DNA from: Photobacterium sp. GJ3
Lineage (GTDB): Bacteria; Pseudomonadota; Gammaproteobacteria; Enterobacterales; Vibrionaceae
Reading direction: 5' to 3'
DNA length: 64,000 bases
Assembly (NCBI RefSeq): GCF_018199995.1
Contig: NZ_CP073579.1
Location: 682,001 to 746,000 of the forward strand
Part shown: in pieces, positions 37,898 through 46,171 of the stretch
How positions within the stretch are numbered: position 1 is the first letter of the stretch
Layout of the letters: each line of letters begins with the position of its first letter
The notes under the pieces: model-generated
The model's input: only the letters and a program-made list of their open reading frames with translations
The model's database searches: none
What the model was told of the DNA's origin: nothing
Made by a program: the position numbers and the translations under genes

Positions 37898-39133
37898 TCA
37901 GGGCCATTGTGGTCTGCTGGCGAGTACTTGTACCGTGCTGATGGTTTTTTCTTTAAACCCGCCTTCGCAGTAGCACAGGTAATACCGCCACATTCGAATG
38001 AATTGCGTATCGAATCCCTGCTTTTGCAATGTTTCAGTGCTGGCGTTAAAGGCCCGGTGCCAGTCAGACAGTGTTCGGGCATAATCCAGGCCGATATCCT
38101 TCAGATCGCGCAGTACAAAGTCGCTGTGTTTGGTCAGGCTTTGTGCCAGATGCGTGACCGAAGGCAGGAAGCCGCCCGGAAAAATATGTTTCTGAATGAA
38201 ATCAACGCCCTTGCTGTATTGTTCAAAGCGTTGATCCGCAATGGTGATGGCCTGAATGGCCAGTAAGCCACCGGCTTTGAGTAAAGACTGGCACTGACGA
38301 ATATAAGTCGGCAGAAAGGCTTTACCGACGGCTTCAATCATCTCGACTGACACCAGCTTGTCGTATTGCCCTTCCAGATCCCGGTAATCCTGTCGCAGCA
38401 AGGTGATCCGGTCTGCCAGTCCGGCTTCATGCACGCGCGCTTTCGCGTACTCGTACTGTGCGTCTGAAATCGTGGTTGTCGTGACCCGGCAGCCATAATG
38501 TCTGGCGGCATGAATTGCCATAGCGCCCCAACCCGTACCGATTTCCAGCAAGTGATCGTCTGGCTGGAGATCCAACTGACGGCACAATCTGTCCATTTTG
38601 AGCCACTGGGCTTGCTCCAGAGAGGTTTCGTCCGTGTCGTAGATCGCACAGGAATACAGCATATGCGGATCGAGAAAGGTGCGGTAAAACGCATTGCCCA
38701 GGTCGTAATGCGCGAGAATATTCTTCTTCGACCCGGCTTTGTCATTCTTACGTGACAAGTGAAGCCAGCCATCCCGCAGTTTCGTCAGCCAGCTGGTGTT
38801 GGCTTCCAGCCGATCCAGCATGGGGAGATTTCGAGCCAGAACCTGAACCACAACGGTCAGATCAGGTGAATCCCACCAGCCATCGATATAAGATTCGCCT
38901 GCTGCAATACTGCCGCCCTGAAGCAGGCGCTGATACACAGCCGGATTTTTGATCAGGACATGTGCCTGACAATCCGATGCCGCATCCCCAAACCTGTGGG
39001 TTTCTCCCTGACTGTCAACCAGAGTCAGGCCGGCATGACGAAGTTGTTTCAGCAGCTTAAACACCAGGTTTCGGGCCATAGAGCCTTCTTTTTCCCCGGT
39101 GTGATACCTGCTTTTGATTTCTGTATTCGACAT
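37898..39133 (-). CDS. Cyclopropane-fatty-acid-synthase-like methyltransferase
   Basis: 411 residues. The N-terminal part (30-130) has the lipid-binding region of CFA synthases (YQRLLQGGSIAAGESYIDGW). The SAM domain follows: HYDLGNAFYRTFLDPHMLYS, DHLLEIGTGWGAMAIHAARH, VSVEMIEAVGKAFLPTYIRQ and FIQKHIFPGGFLPSV. CFA synthases methylate phospholipid double bonds in the membrane. In light and singlet-oxygen regulons such enzymes are linked with methylated or furan fatty acids. It is not in the usual stand-alone cfa context, so it may make a different product. Confidence 0.93.
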   Translation of the reverse strand: MSNTEIKSRYHTGEKEGSMARNLVFKLLKQLRHAGLTLVDSQGETHRFGDAASDCQAHVLIKNPAVYQRLLQGGSIAAGESYIDGWWDSPDLTVVVQVLARNLPMLDRLEANTSWLTKLRDGWLHLSRKNDKAGSKKNILAHYDLGNAFYRTFLDPHMLYSCAIYDTDETSLEQAQWLKMDRLCRQLDLQPDDHLLEIGTGWGAMAIHAARHYGCRVTTTTISDAQYEYAKARVHEAGLADRITLLRQDYRDLEGQYDKLVSVEMIEAVGKAFLPTYIRQCQSLLKAGGLLAIQAITIADQRFEQYSKGVDFIQKHIFPGGFLPSVTHLAQSLTKHSDFVLRDLKDIGLDYARTLSDWHRAFNASTETLQKQGFDTQFIRMWRYYLCYCEGGFKEKTISTVQVLASRPQWP

Positions 39134-39142
39134 TGTCTCACC

Positions 39143-39955
39143 TTAGCGTTCTGGTTGATTGGTTTGTTCTCTATCCTTGTGCACAGGCAAATGGCCTGAA
39201 CCCGGGTGTCCGTAAAAAGGGACTTTCTTGCGCCAGAGCTTCCAGGCCTGGACATAAATGCCCCAGAGCACTTTCACAGTCTGAACTGGCGTCTGACGTA
39301 ACAACTGCCAGAGCACGCTCGTGCTAAACGTCCGTCTGCGCAGCGCCATGGTCGCGTCCATGACGGTGTCCTGCTTTGCTTTTCCCGCAATGTCCAGGTG
39401 CACAAACACTTGCTTTTCAGGCGGCCTCAACCGCCATAAATAATGCTGAGCCATCGGATTGAAGGGCGACACATGAAAAGCTTTGCCCTGTATCCAGTGC
39501 TTTTCATGCCAATCCGAGACAGCAGGCACAGCGTAATAATGACGCTGGTTCCACGGGGTGTTACTGACCTCAGCCAGTAACCAGCGCCATTCCCCCTGTT
39601 CGTTAAAGCAGTAATACAAATTGATTGGGCTGAAGTAGACGCCGAAGTACCTCAACTGACAAAGCTGCATCACTTTACCGGTCAGCCGCTCTCCGGTTAA
39701 CGCCATGATTTTCTCCTGCACTCTGGTTTTCAGCGGGCCATCCCCTTCATTGCGAAGATAATCCTGCCGCCGCCAGCGGGCCGGGTGATACCAGCGACAG
39801 CCAAACCCCCGAACCTGTTCGGCCAGTGCATCCAGCTCATCCAGATCAATCAGCGGCATAAACATCGGATAGGTAAAAGCATGCTGCGCTGGCGAATAGC
39901 GACGATGCCGCACCTGCCCGACAAAAAGTCCGCTCTGTAACCCTGCCGCACTCAT
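39143..39955 (-). CDS. DUF1365 protein
   Basis: 270 residues. Family landmarks: GLFVGQVRHRRYSPAQHAFT, YPMFMPLIDLDELD, MQLCQLRYFGVYFSPINLYY, AVPAVSDWHEKHWIQGKAFH and VSPFNPMAQHYLWRLRPPEK. DUF1365 proteins almost always sit between an FAD-binding oxidoreductase and a CFA-type methyltransferase, as here. The enzyme activity is not established. It overlaps the FAD gene by 4 bases and ends 9 bases before the methyltransferase start. Confidence 0.92.
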   Translation of the reverse strand: MSAAGLQSGLFVGQVRHRRYSPAQHAFTYPMFMPLIDLDELDALAEQVRGFGCRWYHPARWRRQDYLRNEGDGPLKTRVQEKIMALTGERLTGKVMQLCQLRYFGVYFSPINLYYCFNEQGEWRWLLAEVSNTPWNQRHYYAVPAVSDWHEKHWIQGKAFHVSPFNPMAQHYLWRLRPPEKQVFVHLDIAGKAKQDTVMDATMALRRRTFSTSVLWQLLRQTPVQTVKVLWGIYVQAWKLWRKKVPFYGHPGSGHLPVHKDREQTNQPER

Positions 39956-41241
39956 GACACCAGCTCCAGATGCGAACTCGGATGTCCCTGATCAAGTGCA
40001 GCGATCCCAGCCACGACATCCAGTGCACTGCGAACGCCGTCTTCATGAAAACCGTTGTACCAGTAAGCGCCGCAGAACCAGCAACCCGCTTTGCCGTTGA
40101 TCAAGGCTCGCTGCGTTTGCGCAGCAATGGATTCGTCATGAAACACCGGGTGTGCATATTGAAAACGACGCAGGATCTTGCCGGGATCAATATCTCCGGT
40201 GCGATTCAGCGTCACGCAGAAGGTTTCCGGTGCCTGAATCCCCTGAAGCAGATTCATGTTATATGTGACGCTCGCCAGCCGCCGCTCCCGGTTCGACACA
40301 TCAGGCAGATGGTAATTCCAAGCGGCCCAGGCACGCCGCGATTCCGGCAGCATTCGGGTATCCGTATGCAGAACCACTTCGTTCATCTGATACGGCATGT
40401 CACTCAGGATTTGTTGTTCGGCTATGGTTGGATTGGCCAGCATCGCCAGCGCCTGATCGCTGTGGCAGGCAAAGATCACGTGATCAAAAAGCTGTGGCCC
40501 CTGATGTGTGGTCACTTCAACTTTCGGGCCGAATCGCTGAACCTGCAATACCGGCTCATTCAGACGAATGCGATCGTCAAAATCGCGAACCAGACTCCGG
40601 ACATATTCGCGGGAGCCGCCCGGAATCACATACCACTGCGGACGGTTGGTGATTTCCAGTAACCCATGGTGGCGGAAGAAACGGACAAAAAACGGCAAAG
40701 GGAAAGCGCGCATATCTGAGAGTGTGGACGACCAGATTGCTGCGCCCATCGGCAGAATATAGTTCTGACAGAAGTACTCATCGAAGTTGTGTGCAGACAG
40801 AAACTGCCCAAGCGTCTGATCTGCGACGTCCTCAAGATTCACCGCTCTGGCGAGCTGATTAAACCGCAGAATTTCCCGGATGAAACGATAGAACTTTGGA
40901 TTGAGCAGATTACGACGCTGGGCAAACATCGACCAGGCATCATGACCGTTATATTCAAGACCAATGGCCTCGTTTTGCACACTGAAACTCATTTCCGTAG
41001 CCTGACGCCCGATGCCGATTTCATCCAGCAATTGCTCAAAATTCGGATAAGTCCGATCATTGAAAACAATAAAACCGGTATCAATGGTATAACGGCCGCT
41101 CTCCACCGCAACATCCACGGTCGCAGTGTGACCGCCAATATAATTGTTGGCTTCAAATACGGTGATCTCATGGCTTTCATGTAGCTTCCAGGCGCAGGTC
41201 AGACCCGCAATCCCCGTTCCGATAATGGCTATTTTCATCAT
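39952..41241 (-). CDS. FAD-dependent amine-oxidase-like oxidoreductase
   Basis: 429 residues. It starts MMKIAIIGTGIAGLTCAWKL, an FAD dinucleotide-binding motif, followed by ITVFEANNYIGGHTATVDV and DTGFIVFNDRTYPNFEQLLD. The C-terminal FAD contact includes GCWFCGAYWYNGFHEDGVRS. The family is the NAD(P)/FAD protein conserved with DUF1365 and CFA-like methyltransferases; it is a good candidate for oxidising or desaturating a lipid acyl chain. It overlaps both neighbours by 4 bases. Confidence 0.92.
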   Translation of the reverse strand: MMKIAIIGTGIAGLTCAWKLHESHEITVFEANNYIGGHTATVDVAVESGRYTIDTGFIVFNDRTYPNFEQLLDEIGIGRQATEMSFSVQNEAIGLEYNGHDAWSMFAQRRNLLNPKFYRFIREILRFNQLARAVNLEDVADQTLGQFLSAHNFDEYFCQNYILPMGAAIWSSTLSDMRAFPLPFFVRFFRHHGLLEITNRPQWYVIPGGSREYVRSLVRDFDDRIRLNEPVLQVQRFGPKVEVTTHQGPQLFDHVIFACHSDQALAMLANPTIAEQQILSDMPYQMNEVVLHTDTRMLPESRRAWAAWNYHLPDVSNRERRLASVTYNMNLLQGIQAPETFCVTLNRTGDIDPGKILRRFQYAHPVFHDESIAAQTQRALINGKAGCWFCGAYWYNGFHEDGVRSALDVVAGIAALDQGHPSSHLELVS

Positions 41242-41972
41242 GATTTCCCTGTCATTCGTTTGATGATCGCCAGCTGTAATGACACCGGTAACAGCGACAC
41301 CAGTTTAAGAAACCCACTGAATACCGGTGGGAAGTGAACTTCAGATTTTCTTTTCGCAATGCCTTTCCGGATTTTGTCTGAGGCGTAATCGGTCGAAACA
41401 CGCATCGGCATTTCAAAATCGTTTTTATCCGTCAGCGGCGTTTTCACAAAACCAGGAGAAACCAGTGTAAAAGTGACACCGTCGCGCGCCAGATCGAGCT
41501 TGAGCGTATGGATCAGATACCGCACTGCTGCCTTAGATGCGCCATAAGCTTCGGCTCTGGGTAAAGGCACATAAGCGGCTGTGGAGCCAACAATGGCCAC
41601 ATGCGTGGTTTCGGTAAATCTGGGCTGCAGCGCCTCAAGACAATTCAGGACACCAAAGAAATTGACGTCAAACACCCGCCGGAACAGGGCAACATCGACT
41701 TCGCCATGCTCAATGTATTCGCAGGTGCCCGCATTGAGGATAATCAGACTGGGACGTATCGAAGGATCGCCCAAAGCATCCAGCGTGGCCTGATGGTCCG
41801 CCACATCAAATGCCAATGGGGTAATTCTTTCGCTGACCATGGCCAGCTGATGCAGCTTTTCAGGTGATCGTCCGCAGGCAATCACCTGCCAACCGTCTGC
41901 GGCATAGTCTTTTGCAAGCTGAGCGCCAATGCCTGAGCTGGCCCCGGTAATCAATACTGTCGACATCATCAC
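41238..41972 (-). CDS. Short-chain dehydrogenase/reductase
   Basis: 244 residues. It begins MMMSTVLITGASSGIGAQLA with TGxxxGIG; ILNAGTCEYIEH gives the NAG motif; catalytic Ser is in IVGSTAAYVP and YxxxK is in RAEAYGASKAAV. VSPGFVKTPLTDKN follows. A classic NAD(P)-dependent oxidoreductase; the substrate is likely a lipid-derived carbonyl or alcohol in this operon, by inference. It overlaps the genes on both sides by 4 bases. Confidence 0.92.
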   Translation of the reverse strand: MMMSTVLITGASSGIGAQLAKDYAADGWQVIACGRSPEKLHQLAMVSERITPLAFDVADHQATLDALGDPSIRPSLIILNAGTCEYIEHGEVDVALFRRVFDVNFFGVLNCLEALQPRFTETTHVAIVGSTAAYVPLPRAEAYGASKAAVRYLIHTLKLDLARDGVTFTLVSPGFVKTPLTDKNDFEMPMRVSTDYASDKIRKGIAKRKSEVHFPPVFSGFLKLVSLLPVSLQLAIIKRMTGKS

Positions 41973-42439
41973 AGTCCCGCCTTGATTGATTTCACGACGC
42001 GCCCCAACAGTGGGATGGCCTCGTAAAGCATTTCACCTAAATCGAAATAGTCACGGTGATGAATCACCTGGTTGTCCTGAAACGTCAGGTGGGAACACCC
42101 CTGAACTTCCCGGTGCTGACCCCGGTTGAGCTTGGGATGCGCAAACACCATGGTCCAGACAACGTATCCCTGTGCACCATCTGCCATCGACTGATGAATC
42201 CTGAATTCACAGTGCGTGACGTTTTGGAACAATCGCTGAAAGTAATCGTGCAGAGCAGGCCAGCCTTCAACCCGGTGCGCCGAATCTTCAAACACCACTG
42301 CCGGATGATAAAGCGCTTCAAGGCTGCTTAAATCCTGCTGGTCTAATTGGCTGTATATGCGGACAAACTGCGCCATCACCGAATCTGATGCCGGATTTTC
42401 CTGCCCTTCAATCGCTGAACTTGTGCTGAAATCTTGCAT
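41969..42439 (-). CDS. NTF2-like (SnoaL-type) protein
   Basis: 156 residues. The core has the NTF2-like pattern FVRIYSQLDQQDLSSLEALY, HPAVVFEDSAHRVEGWPALH, RIHQSMADGAQGYVVWTMVF and GCSHLTFQDNQVIHHRDYFD. Such folds act as small isomerases, cyclases or binding proteins. It is a standard member of this gene set in vibrios and related bacteria. It overlaps the SDR gene by 4 bases and lies 47 bases after the restored photolyase stop. Confidence 0.87.
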   Translation of the reverse strand: MQDFSTSSAIEGQENPASDSVMAQFVRIYSQLDQQDLSSLEALYHPAVVFEDSAHRVEGWPALHDYFQRLFQNVTHCEFRIHQSMADGAQGYVVWTMVFAHPKLNRGQHREVQGCSHLTFQDNQVIHHRDYFDLGEMLYEAIPLLGRVVKSIKAGL

Positions 42440-42486: not shown

Positions 42487-43952
42487 TCAGGCTTGTTCTG
42501 TAAAGGCTTTCGCCTGCTTGAATGCTTCGATGGCTTTTACCCGGGCCGCCTTGTGGTCCACCATGGGCGGCGGATAATCCAGGCTTTTCACATCCGGCCA
42601 GTCATACGGATTGTGGATGTATTTATCCGGCACTTTTGCCAGCTCTTTGACCCATGTACGGATGAATTCGCCATTTGGATCAAACTTTTTCCCTGCGCCG
42701 TCGGATTAAACACACGGAAGTAAGGTTGGGCGTCTGTCCCGGTTGATGCAGCCCATTGCCAGCCACCATTGTTCGAAGCCAGATCCCCGTCAATCAGCTG
42801 TGACATAAACCACTGTTCACCAGCCTGCCAGTGAATCAGCAAGTCTTTGGTCAGAAAACTGGCCGTAATCATGCGAAGCCGGTTGTGCATCCAACCGGTT
42901 GCTTTGAGCTGACGCATCGCGGCATCCACAATCGGGAATCCTGTCTCGCCGTTTTGCCAACGCTCCAGCGCTGATTGATCCCATTGCCAGTCCACCTGTC
43001 GGGTCCAGTTCACAAACGGCTGTGCCCGGCTCACCTGCGGATAGGCATCAATCAGATGACGGTAAAATTCACGCCAGATAATTTCATTGAGCCAGATAAA
43101 CGGGCCTTGCTCCTGCTTTTCAAAAGCCTCCGGAAATTCATGCAAAACGGCCGACAAACACTGCCTTGCAGAAACTGCCCCGATGGCGAGATAAGGCGAT
43201 AAACCGCTGGTGCCATCCACTGCGGGCAGATCGCGGTGCTCACCGTAATCCTGAACTTTCTCAACGCAAAAACGGATCAGACGCGCCCGGATGTCTTCTT
43301 CTCCGACGGGCCAGTCGCTGCTGTCTCTGAGGGCATATCCCATCCAGCGATCAACTTGCTCGTCACTCAGAGGGGTCGCAAATTTCATGTGTTCAGCATC
43401 ATGGGCTTGCGCTGCTGGCGCAGGCTGAGCAAGTGCCGGGCTGAGATGGAACTGATTCAGCCACTCACGCCGAAATGGGGTGTAGACCTTAAACGGATCG
43501 CCTTGCCGGGTGAGCACACTGCCAGCCGGAAGCACACAGGTATCTTCAAACACACTGAATTTAATCTTTTGCTTTTTCAGTGCCTGACCCACAGCCTGAT
43601 CCCGCAATTTTTCGTTCCATTCATACTGCTTGTTACAAAAGACGTGATCGCACGACCATGCCTCGGCCAGTGCAGCGATGGCAGCCGGAAGCGCCTCAAA
43701 ATCAGCAACCTGCTCAATCCGAAGCGGTATATTGCATTCACTTAACTGTGCCTGGAGCGATATCAGGCGGCGGCGGATCAAATCAATTTGAATCGGCGCT
43801 GTGTCATGAGACGCCCATTGTTCCGGCGTGGCAAAAAAGACGGCAAACACGGGGTTTTTCTGTTTGCAGGCCTGAAGCAGCGCGGTGTTATCAACGACCC
43901 TTAAATCGGCCCGGAACCACATCATGCTGTTGGCGGATTCACGCTTCGTCAT
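42487..43952 (-). pseudogene. phrB: Deoxyribodipyrimidine photolyase, frameshifted near 3' end
   Basis: The gene starts at ATG 43952 (MTKRESANSMMWFRADLRVV). It carries the antenna domain and the FAD-binding helical domain: GTSGLSPYLAIGAVSARQCL, FIWLNEIIWREFYRHLIDAY, TGFPIVDAAMRQLKATGWMH and SNNGGWQWAASTGTDAQPYF. After RVFNPTAQGK the frame breaks at a run of five A (minus strand; T-run 42686-42690). Adding one A restores KFDPNGEFIRTWVKELAKVP and a normal C-terminus ending at TGA 42487-42489. As written the frame continues to a stop at 42588-42590 with a wrong tail. CPD photolyase uses blue light to split pyrimidine dimers. Either a real recent mutation or a homopolymer error. Confidence 0.92.
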
Positions 43953-44787
43953 GCTCAGTCTCTCCTGCCAGTTGCTGTAACCAGGAACCATGAATCACCG
44001 CAATACTGCCTTTCAGAATCACAGGGCAATGCAACGCCGTATGCAGCCTCGCCAATTGCTTCAGGATGGCTTGCGGGAGTTTGCTTTCGCCCACCACCAG
44101 TACCTGCGCAAAATCCTGTTGTGATACGGCGGCTTCTAATCCGTGCAATTTGCCCTGAAATGGCAGATTCTCCAGGATAGTGACACTGTCACCATCCAGA
44201 CTCAGCGCCAGCGCCGAGAGCCAGATATGATGTGAGATACCATCCTGTGCCGGCTCAAAACTCAGCAACAGTGCTTTTCGTCCGTTTCTCTTGCGGGCTT
44301 TCGCAACCAGTGCAGCGCAGTGCTCGATTAAAGCGGATTGCCATAATGCGCACTGTATGGGCTTGAGCGGATTCGCACTCTCATTCAATTGCCGGTCGAC
44401 GGGCTCAACCACCTGCTCGATAAACAATGACAGCGGATATTCTTTCATCAGCTGAGTTAACAGTTGTTCCAGCTTTCCGCGTCGGCATTCAGCCAGCGCA
44501 GTCATCACAGGTGTCACCCAGGCCTGCTCGCTTTCCTGCTCTGCGACAGCCTCTGATCCGGTTTCGAGCAACGGACGCACTTTACTGATAGCGACGCCTT
44601 TATCGAGCCAGGACACAATCAGCTGAATCCGCTCAATATCTTCCTGCGTGTACAGTCTGTGCCCTTTTTCGGTCCGCTGCGGTTTGATTAAGCCATACCG
44701 GCGCTGCCAGGCACGCAAGGTCACCGAGTTGACGCCGGTGATTTCAGAGACTTCACGGATTGCAAATAATTTCACTTCAGAGGCCAT
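43939..44787 (-). CDS. MerR-family regulator, class II LitR-like
   Basis: 282 residues. The MerR winged helix is at residues 6-75: LFAIREVSEITGVNSVTLRA, WQRRYGLIKPQRTEKGHRLY, TQEDIERIQLIVSWL. The rest (about 85-275) resembles the helical and Rossmann-like part of B12-dependent LitR/CarH regulators, but the DxHxxG cobalamin loop is not evident (here AQDGISHHIWLSAL). This fits class II LitR and MlrA-like proteins, which lack bound B12 and rely on a partner such as a short LOV photoreceptor. It sits second in the operon and overlaps both neighbours, so it likely controls itself through the palindromic sites upstream of 45721. Confidence 0.88.
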   Translation of the reverse strand: MASEVKLFAIREVSEITGVNSVTLRAWQRRYGLIKPQRTEKGHRLYTQEDIERIQLIVSWLDKGVAISKVRPLLETGSEAVAEQESEQAWVTPVMTALAECRRGKLEQLLTQLMKEYPLSLFIEQVVEPVDRQLNESANPLKPIQCALWQSALIEHCAALVAKARKRNGRKALLLSFEPAQDGISHHIWLSALALSLDGDSVTILENLPFQGKLHGLEAAVSQQDFAQVLVVGESKLPQAILKQLARLHTALHCPVILKGSIAVIHGSWLQQLAGETEHDEA

Positions 44788-45721
44788 AACGTAATTTCAA
44801 CTCCTCCGGATACGGATGAAGGAATGTCTGCAATTGCAGATACGGATCCGGAAATTCTTTCAGGTAATGATTAATCAGTGCCAAAGGCACCAGAATCGGC
44901 TGATGCCCCAATCGGTAACTTTGGATCAGATCCAGCAGTTCCTGCTTTTGCGCCTTGGTCAGATTGCGTTTGAAATATCCCTGCAGGTGCATCAGCACAT
45001 TGGTATTGTTTTTGCGGTTGGCCCGGTGACTCAGTGCCGCCATAAATTGCTGACGGTACGTGGCAAAGAATTCATTCAGATCCCAGTGTTTAATCCCGGC
45101 CACCAGAGGCCCCATCGACTTGTAAGCCGCGGGACAATGTGCCATCAGCACGAATTTGTATCGGGAATGAAACTTCACAAAAGCATCGATTGTCGGCTGC
45201 TGACCCACACTCTGATAAAAATCGTGCAGGGCATGAATACGGAATACAAAGTTCTCCCGCAGCACCGGATCATGTAATCGTCCGTCTTCTTCAACAGGCA
45301 ACCAAGGCATGGCTGCCATCAGCTTGCGCGTGAAGACACCAACCGTGCCTCCCGGCACCGTATTACCATTCGGAATGTACAGTTTCACCCGCTCCATTCC
45401 GCAGGTCGGCGATTTAGCACAAACGATGAAACCACACAGATCATTGAGGCCAGCAATATGACGCTCGGCGAAACTCTGCATCGCCGCTGTATAGTCGTTT
45501 TCACCTTGCTTGCTATCGACTAAATGCTCGCCGTCTTCCTGCTGAACCAACCGGATAGTCGGACGGGGCACAGGCAAACCAATCGCCATTTCCGGACAGA
45601 CCGGACGAAACCGAACGTATTGAGCCAGCTCATCGGTCACGAACCGATTCCGCTTATGCCCGCCATCGAATCGTACTTTCTCGCCAAGTACACAGGCACT
45701 GATACCCACCGGAATAGACAT
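44777..45721 (-). CDS. DUF523-DUF1722 protein (YbgA-like)
   Basis: 314 residues. The N-terminal DUF523 part (about 1-140) has conserved Cys: IPVGISACVLGEKVRFDGGH, RPVCPEMAIGLPVPR and VCAKSPTCGMERVKLY, probably metal or Fe-S binding. The C-terminal DUF1722 part (about 190-314) has FHSRYKFVLMAHCPAAYKSM, VLMHLQGYFKRNLTKAQKQE and LIQSYRLGHQPILVPLALIN. E. coli ybgA (DUF1722) also sits next to phr. I chose ATG 45721, which begins at the DUF523 start; the open frame to 45784 runs through the operator. First gene of the operon. Confidence 0.93.
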   Translation of the reverse strand: MSIPVGISACVLGEKVRFDGGHKRNRFVTDELAQYVRFRPVCPEMAIGLPVPRPTIRLVQQEDGEHLVDSKQGENDYTAAMQSFAERHIAGLNDLCGFIVCAKSPTCGMERVKLYIPNGNTVPGGTVGVFTRKLMAAMPWLPVEEDGRLHDPVLRENFVFRIHALHDFYQSVGQQPTIDAFVKFHSRYKFVLMAHCPAAYKSMGPLVAGIKHWDLNEFFATYRQQFMAALSHRANRKNNTNVLMHLQGYFKRNLTKAQKQELLDLIQSYRLGHQPILVPLALINHYLKEFPDPYLQLQTFLHPYPEELKLRYGL

Positions 45722-45726
45722 GTCAC

Positions 45727-45803
45727 ACCTATACAAAAATATTTCTTGTACAAGAATCTTAGATAAGACACCGGAGTTGTACAAGAAAAAAAAATGTATA
45801 GGT
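45727..45803. promoter_or_regulatory. Mirror-symmetric MerR/LitR-type operator with promoter
   Basis: Four half-sites form two inverted modules: TATACA 45730-45735, 11 bases, TGTACA 45747-45752; then TGTACA 45778-45783, 11 bases, TGTATA 45795-45800. Extended, ACCTATACA (45727-45735) matches the reverse complement of TGTATAGGT (45795-45803), and the whole array is symmetric about 45765. On the minus strand TTGTAC, 17 bases, TAAGAT makes a good -35/-10 pair inside it. Class II LitR and MlrA sites are, as I recall, of the form T(G/A)TACA-N12-TGTA(C/T)A. It lies just before the first gene of the operon, whose second gene encodes a MerR protein. Confidence 0.82.
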
Positions 45804-45832
45804 TTGTAACAGCTCTGAGTTCAGGGGAAAAA

Positions 45833-45861
45833 AAAGCTGCCTGAGCGATTCAGGCAGCTTT
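45833..45861 (-). terminator. Terminator after the truncated NYN gene
   Basis: 12-bp stem AAAGCTGCCTGA / TCAGGCAGCTTT with a 5-base loop, followed on the minus strand by TTTTTTTCC. It isolates the operon promoter from upstream reading. Confidence 0.92.
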
Positions 45862-45883: not shown

Positions 45884-46171
45884 TCAACCAACCAGCCACG
45901 AGGTTTTGAATGACTTCGTCAGCAAATGTTCATGACCAGGTCGCTTCACGGGTTCTCGCATCTGGTCATCGAATGGCGGCGCATCATAATAATAGATGCG
46001 GTACAAATCGCCTCTTCGCGAAGCCTTTTGATGTTTTCGAACTAAGGTATATAAAACGCTGATGAGATGTTCAGGTTTCAATTCGCAAGCGGAAAAAAAT
46101 TTACGATGGAAATATCGAACCCGATGAACAAAATATCCACCATCAACAAAGAAAGTAATTTTTCGATTCAT
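45884..46171 (-). pseudogene. Truncated NYN-domain (LabA/DUF88-like) protein
   Basis: The 95-residue product starts MNRKITFFVDGGYFVHRVRY and has LYRIYYYDAPPFDDQM, which is the first third of an NYN-domain RNase-like protein with the first catalytic Asp (FFVDGGYF). Full-length relatives are about 250 residues and contain a second acidic core (SGDADF) that is missing here. After about residue 78 the sequence (KRPGHEHLLTKSFKTSWLVG) is not like the family. It ends before a strong terminator, so it looks like an internal deletion that kept the gene ends. Confidence 0.7.

Follow-up and report, generated by a model that had tools for sequence, protein, structure and literature searches.

The array at 45727..45803 of the window is, with a probability that we put at about 0.8, a two-module operator of the MerR/LitR-type regulator encoded in the adjoining operon, at which two dimers would occlude a sigma70-like promoter in the dark. 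The window, the whole stretch of DNA that was analyzed, is 64,000 nucleotides long and comes from Photobacterium sp. GJ3. This reading draws on the sequence itself, its recurrence in relatives, the polarity of the dyads, the register of the promoter, the co-occurrence with the MerR gene, and searches that gave no LOV, BLUF, or ChrR matches in this genome; from these observations we infer binding, repression, cooperation between dimers, and a light trigger. Each module of the form TRTACA-N11/12-TGTAYA would take one dimer, the upstream dimer lying over the -35 and the downstream dimer over the start point and leader, and both together would shut the promoter by occlusion. Because the regulator gene lies in the operon, this would form an autoregulatory loop. 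The repressor would be released by light or photo-oxidative stress, and the genes for tRNA de-thiolation, photorepair, and lipids would then be turned on. The features are collected in Table 1, and literature statements throughout follow excerpts of the cited papers.

Table 1. Features of the array and the operon, in window coordinates, with the basis for each.
Feature	Coordinates	Strand	Basis
Half-site a (outer, upstream), TATACA	45795..45800	-	sequence; variable position obeys dyad polarity in relatives
Half-site b (inner, upstream), TGTACA	45778..45783	-	sequence
Half-site c (inner, downstream), TGTACA	45747..45752	-	sequence and relatives
Half-site d (outer, downstream), TGTATA	45730..45735	-	sequence and relatives
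Upstream module a-N11-b, overlapping the -35	45778..45800	-	sequence; geometry in relatives
Downstream module c-N11-d, predicted start point to start codon	45730..45752	-	sequence; geometry in relatives
Predicted -35, TTGTAC	45779..45784	-	read from sequence, scored
Predicted -10, TAAGAT, 17 bp from the -35 and 3 bp before half-site c	45756..45761	-	sequence; register in relatives
Gene 1, RudS-like (2-thiouracil desulfurase plus DUF1722)	44777..45721	-	PF04463, PF08349; ATG 45721-45719
Gene 2, MerR-family regulator with MlrA-type helical domain	43939..44787	-	domain matches
Gene 3, DNA photolyase	42588..43991	-	domain match; frame broken near 3' end
SnoaL-like protein, presumed operon member	41969..42439	-	domain match
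Short-chain dehydrogenase (SDR), presumed operon member	41238..41972	-	domain match
FAD-dependent amine oxidase-like protein, presumed operon member	39952..41241	-	domain match
Presumably a DUF1365 protein	39143..39955	-	NCBIfam gave no match
Cyclopropane-fatty-acid-synthase-like protein	37898..39133	-	profile match

Read on the forward strand, the modules are TATACA-N11-TGTACA (45730-45752) and TGTACA-N11-TGTATA (45778-45800), with half-sites starting at 45730, 45747, 45778, and 45795. An earlier sequence-only reading held that they are exact inverses of each other about a single centre at 45765, and the sequence agrees in full. With up to one mismatch allowed, these two are the sole matches to the module pattern in the window (0.23 expected; 3 of 100 shuffles reached two matches), and they are the only exact N11 modules in the whole 5.31 Mb genome. 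One inverted repeat spans the array, with 30-nt arms (45724-45753 and 45777-45806) that are 80% complementary and 23 nt apart; the same search also gave one unrelated 11-nt pair. The outer flanks, ACC and GGT, match as had been claimed. The gene-side copy is part of the GGTG that adjoins half-site d just ahead of the ATG and is probably the ribosome-binding site, so this flank need not belong to the operator. A terminator-like hairpin (45833-45861) separates the array from the upstream ORF at 45884-46171. Further targets in this genome were looked for and rejected, as sites with one mismatch showed no excess over reversed controls (20 versus 15 for N11, 14 versus 23 for N12). The genome contains a single exact N12 site (C1:1969694).

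The operon is on the minus strand and reads away from the array, in the order RudS-like, MerR, photolyase, SnoaL-like, SDR, FAD oxidase, probable DUF1365, and CFA-synthase-like. The RudS-like product is predicted by homology to remove 4-thiouridine from tRNA (PMC11417400), and the last product is perhaps UfaM, by analogy with the matching Pseudomonas mendocina cluster, which contains ufaM (PMC9758184). The nearest MerR gene is second in the operon, as had been noted, and its co-occurrence with the array makes its product the presumed owner of the operator. No photolyase/cryptochrome FAD domain was found in the genome other than that of the operon photolyase. This domain is split over two frames of the minus strand (42684-43094 and, for the remainder, approximately 42514-42738), which may reflect a frameshift or an assembly error; a frameshifted photolyase counts against the operator reading.

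The sequence-only reading had made conservation of the half-sites in related species its touchstone, and they do recur: they precede this operon in other members of the genus, in the wider family, and in Pseudomonas, and they accompany an adjacent MerR gene. Homologues of the MerR protein are present in 45 of 52 genus genomes, and four half-sites were found at 27 of the 30 genus loci located via this protein. One of the three exceptions (L011) stops at a contig end, and the fourth half-site has one mismatch in the other two (L017, L025). To sample loci by the first gene of the operon, we searched for RudS, which gave matches at 77 places in 76 of the 81 family genomes and in 110 of 369 genomes of the taxonomic class. 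The family sample held 63 places besides the window locus (64 stretches, L307 duplicating L235), with 13 places left out. Of these 63 distinct loci, 44 have an adjacent MerR gene and 43 of those carry the module, versus 1 of the 19 others (Fisher p = 1.4e-13, kinship ignored). Four exact half-sites were present at 33 of the 43, and 8 more had one mismatch in one half-site. The MerR gene of the exceptional genome with a module and no adjacent MerR (G041) lies farther downstream, behind a tandem RudS copy; the two tandem RudS-like genes ahead of it are at G041:C70:20224-22490. No array was found at the other family loci without adjacent MerR. Photolyase lies beside RudS at 17 of the 19 loci of this kind (L233, L276, L284, and most of L290-L306).

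The class sample comprised the window locus and 69 higher-scoring places (G084, G138, G059, and G109 were passed over). Here the module was found at 4 of 8 loci with MerR versus 0 of 62 without (Fisher p = 7.6e-5, kinship ignored), and these four include the window itself (L154) and one locus with an odd N13 spacer and no surrounding array (L202). At the other four class loci with MerR no module was found, which counts against its universality and against the operator reading. The adjacency test reached to about 1.5 kb from RudS, so a MerR gene farther away would be missed. A public-genome scan for three half-sites with the inner gap fixed at 24-27 bp returned at least 120 stretches; among the 120 listed, at least 72 contain four half-sites (74 by an alternative counting rule), and 64 of the 72 have a RudS match. 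Since chance matches in unrelated phyla are expected from the scan pattern and its gap was preset, we judged geometry on the protein-found loci. In the Vibrionaceae arrays found this way the inner gap is 23-27 bp, though 14-54 bp was permitted, and the module spacers are 11 or 12, once 10.

We examined which half-sites vary in 111 distinct arrays, permitting either variant at any half-site. At left half-sites the sole variant seen is TATACA (a 33, c 4; 37 to 0 for TGTATA) and at right half-sites it is TGTATA (b 7, d 10; 17 to 0 for TATACA), in a set where 65 arrays come from the scan, with three TGTACA preset and only an outer site free, and where related species are non-independent. Such polarised variation indicates that TRTACA half-sites belong together in inverted pairs, a-b and c-d, and suggests that every module is a dyad that takes a single dimer. 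It also bears on whether the inverted repeat acts as RNA, in the form of an attenuator or leader hairpin, for which its long and largely complementary arms could speak. We consider this most improbable: the half-site variants follow DNA-dyad polarity, the upstream module precedes the predicted start and would stay untranscribed, and the lengths of the module spacers and the gap differ among species.

A weightier question within the operator reading is whether the two dimers cooperate. Two independent and redundant sites would fit a family gap that is looser than strict helical phasing, and at the 15 loci with one intact module the fourth half-site is kept at one mismatch in 11 and is worse in 4. 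Against independence, the gap is held to its narrow range, out of the much wider one allowed, across lineages with different promoter register. We regard independent sites as a possible but less likely arrangement than cooperating dimers.

The promoter that the sequence-only reading placed within the array, TTGTAC-N17-TAAGAT, is present on the minus strand, in the sense of the operon. It was not listed by a consensus promoter scan of the window, yet the register of its -10 is conserved in the genus. The start point would be expected inside half-site c. A TAnnnT lies 21-23 bp from half-site b in 27 of 27 Photobacterium arrays (21 of them at +22), in 13 of 19 arrays from the further family, and in 5 of 65 scan arrays. 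The scan arrays, mostly from Pseudomonas, have TAnnnT at b+16 in 56 of 65 and TTGACT ending just before b in 51 of 65; this TTGACT occurs in none of the Photobacterium or further-family arrays. In 500 shuffles of the gaps the largest TAnnnT register values were 9 for Photobacterium, 6 for the family, and 13 for the scan arrays. The T at 45784 that precedes half-site b, and turns it into the -35, is present in 27 of 27 Photobacterium, 19 of 19 further-family, and 63 of 65 scan arrays; being so frequent in the scan arrays, this T alone is no proof of use as a -35, and it is the -10 that supplies it. By consensus scoring, the best-scoring promoter falls at these registers in only 11 of 27 Photobacterium arrays, which counts against the operator reading, as well as in 4 of the 19 family arrays and 54 of the 65 from the scan. 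This low share means that the Vibrionaceae promoter is weak by consensus.

Relative to half-site b, the Pseudomonas promoter TTGACT-N16-TATGAT is 5-6 bp farther upstream than that of the window, with operator geometry nearly unchanged. A promoter that shifts while the operator stays nearly fixed suggests that the repressor sets the spacing and works by occlusion, and favours occlusion over MerR-type twisting. Classical MerR activators bind a dyad inside a promoter spacer of 19-20 bp. Activation of this kind, with a dimer between the -35 and the -10 untwisting an over-long spacer, would suit a regulator of the MerR family. The predicted spacer here is 17 bp, the dyads lie to both sides of the promoter core and not in the spacer, and twisting should not tolerate a promoter that moved while the operator spacing was kept. 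We therefore hold activation to be quite unlikely.

Alignment of the regulators showed that the HTH is their conserved part. Median identity to the window MerR is 60% in the HTH versus 20% in the C-terminus at the scan loci (mostly Pseudomonas), 68% versus 21% in other Vibrionaceae, and 78% versus 37% in Photobacterium. This pattern bears on the idea that the half-sites serve another transcription factor and that the neighbouring MerR is incidental. Several regulators could recognize a palindrome as short as TGTACA; nevertheless, the module tracks the MerR gene, the DNA-binding part of the protein is the one conserved, and published LitR footprints match (PMC9758184), all of which leave another factor with little probability. 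Because the C-terminus shares only about 20% identity with the same part of the LitRs from the scan loci, the input of the regulator, and even its sign, could differ from theirs. This counts against the operator reading, as does the statement that the MerR of V. cholerae may act as suppressor or enhancer (PMC5241685).

The window MerR gave no match to B12-binding_2 (PF02607) at E up to 1 or to the B12 Pfam domains. Three of four scan LitRs tested matched B12-binding_2 (L034, L067, and L057, not L042), and none of four Vibrionaceae regulators tested did. Across an alignment of 45 sequences, H43 of the HTH is the single His that comes close to invariance, and beyond the HTH no His is invariant or nearly so. 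The protein gave no sign of the B12-binding domains with a conserved motif His that define class I LitR/CarH, and it scored 113 bits against the NCBIfam MlrA model, whose cut-off is 417. The sequence-only reading had called the array LitR/MlrA-type and compared it with class II LitR and MlrA sites. Its half-sites do fit the consensus published for the class, T(G/A)TACA-N12-TGTA(C/T)A with a two-site promoter, and are the same as those of PmlR2 at P6650 of P. mendocina and of PplR1 of P. putida (PMC9758184). Both spacers are N11 in the window versus N12 in these two species (PMC9758184); relatives of the window array mostly have 11 or 12. By the predicted promoter, the layout is also that of class II: one of the sites overlies the -35 and the other falls between start point and ATG, as in P. 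mendocina (PMC9758184). The class II label is doubtful since the regulator has no match to B12-binding_2, the four-helix domain of that class, and the short LOV protein that controls class II was not found in the window genome; PmlR2 keeps a B12-binding_2-like domain and has a short LOV protein as antagonist (PMC9758184). Class IV is described as LitRs without a B12-binding domain, mainly in Vibrio, with functions unknown, and the excerpts give no binding site for it (PMC9758184). The window MerR, a Vibrionaceae LitR-type protein without this domain, fits that definition, and we infer that it belongs to class IV.

Known light inputs were also searched for. BLUF was found in 0 of 52 genus genomes, with E. 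coli positive as control. The LOV motif, a pattern that a LOV protein with another motif would escape, was not found in the window genome. A strict LOV pattern, matching in 1 of 52 genus genomes, was dropped because all 8 control genomes, including 5 from Pseudomonas, came out negative. A looser pattern was run on 41 genomes, including 33 of the 52 from Photobacterium; it was positive in 5 of 5 Pseudomonas genomes and 0 of 3 other Vibrionaceae records. Judged from translations, 1 of the 33 Photobacterium genomes (G008) has a LOV protein, and the other matches in the genus were rejected because their frames contain stops and are not LOV-like. ChrR is present in 43 of 59 Vibrionaceae genomes tested; no match over the family cut-off was found in the window genome or in the five genomes with the nearest MerR. 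Without a LOV or ChrR match in the window genome, neither a LOV anti-repressor of the P. mendocina type nor ChrR is a likely input here.

In relatives, ChrR may be linked to the array. The ChrR-sigmaE promoter is given as TGATC-N18-CGTAT, with TGATC as the -35 part (PMC5241685). We found TGATC in the b-c gap of 25 of the 111 distinct arrays versus about 3 expected from shuffled gaps, 22 bp (21 arrays) or 23 bp (4 arrays) before half-site c. The loci include L014, L015, L017-L020, L023, and some of L231-L285, and the seven scan loci among the 25 are all from Vibrionaceae. At chrR loci, 30 of 30 fetched have TGATC-N16..18-CGT 600-900 bases before chrR (0.27 expected by shuffling), with spacers of N16 in 7, N17 in 21, and N18 in 2; this element precedes an open stretch of about 200 codons that is presumably the sigma gene. 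By this spacing half-site c, TGTACA, sits at the would-be -10 with T for C, a deviation from consensus, and may double as a sigma-E -10 in ChrR-bearing relatives. TGATC-N17/18-TGTACA-N11/12-TGTAYA occurs in 47 of 296 family genomes versus 1 for a reversed control.

Among genomes with the array, 24 of 38 that bear ChrR have TGATC in this position, versus 0 of 16 that do not bear it, the window genome included (54 array loci; Fisher p = 8.8e-6, kinship ignored), leaving 14 ChrR-bearing genomes whose array has no TGATC element. A quick RudS tree gave 4-5 independent contrasts, in which, on average, TGATC accompanied ChrR in 1.7 and did not differ in 2.3, with no contrast pointing the opposite way. 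With so few contrasts a sign test could not reach significance, and kinship could explain the association. The window array has no TGATC 17-18 bp before half-site c, in a genome where ChrR was not found. We rejected the idea that sigma-E simply replaces LitR where MerR is lost, as exact sigma-E sites (TGATC-N17-19-CGTA) precede the operon at 0 of 19 family loci without the module; one such site was found in 45 loci with it.

These elements allow a more speculative view, which we consider doubtful but worth stating. A fixed four-half-site LitR clamp would have been re-wired to different promoters and light inputs: to sigma70 through TTGACT in Pseudomonas, to sigma-E through TGATC with half-site c as the -10 in ChrR-bearing Vibrionaceae, and, in the clade of the window, to TTGTAC, where half-site b would also serve as -35. 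In Photobacterium without ChrR, LOV, or BLUF, the MerR itself would then be a new sensor of light or photo-oxidation, through its fast-changing C-terminal domain.

Several characterized systems resemble the one proposed here. P. mendocina has a light-inducible cluster like the window operon, with a hypothetical gene (PME6650), pmlR1, phrB, SDR, FAD oxidase, and ufaM, and its two-site promoter was footprinted with DNase I from -54 to +37 and repressed in vitro (PMC9758184). The array had been described as more elaborate than a single site; this does not set it apart, since four half-sites are the family norm, already footprinted in Pseudomonas. The HTH is also related to CarA/CarH of Myxococcus, Thermus, and others, the best solved-structure match of the window MerR; their TnnACA core is contained in TRTACA, and CarA places two cooperating dimers over the -35 (PMC9304148, PMC8156234). 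CarH binds tandem 11-bp direct repeats (PMC9304148), whereas in the window half-sites 17-18 bp apart form inverted pairs, one on each side of the promoter core. In V. cholerae, the MerR VCA0056 is in a predicted operon with phr, beside ChrR-sigmaE in the blue-light response, and the excerpts show no operator for this MerR (PMC5241685); in the window genome, ChrR gave no match above the family cut-off. Our literature search, with most subscription journals outside its range, found no paper describing this operator in Vibrionaceae. New, as far as we have seen, are the extension to Vibrionaceae LitR-type proteins, the evidence from polarity and register, the absence of known sensor partners in the clade of the window, and the sigma-E-like element embedded in the arrays of relatives.

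The array would thereby provide a concrete candidate operator for the Vibrionaceae LitR class (class IV), described in the excerpts as of unknown function (PMC9758184). It also points to a species group in which the operator and the repressor persist where searches for LOV, BLUF, and ChrR found no known photoreceptor partner. The array pattern is common to many marine bacteria and pseudomonads, and in many relatives the sigma-E-like element suggests that MerR and ChrR-sigmaE, both blue-light regulators, converge on a single promoter.
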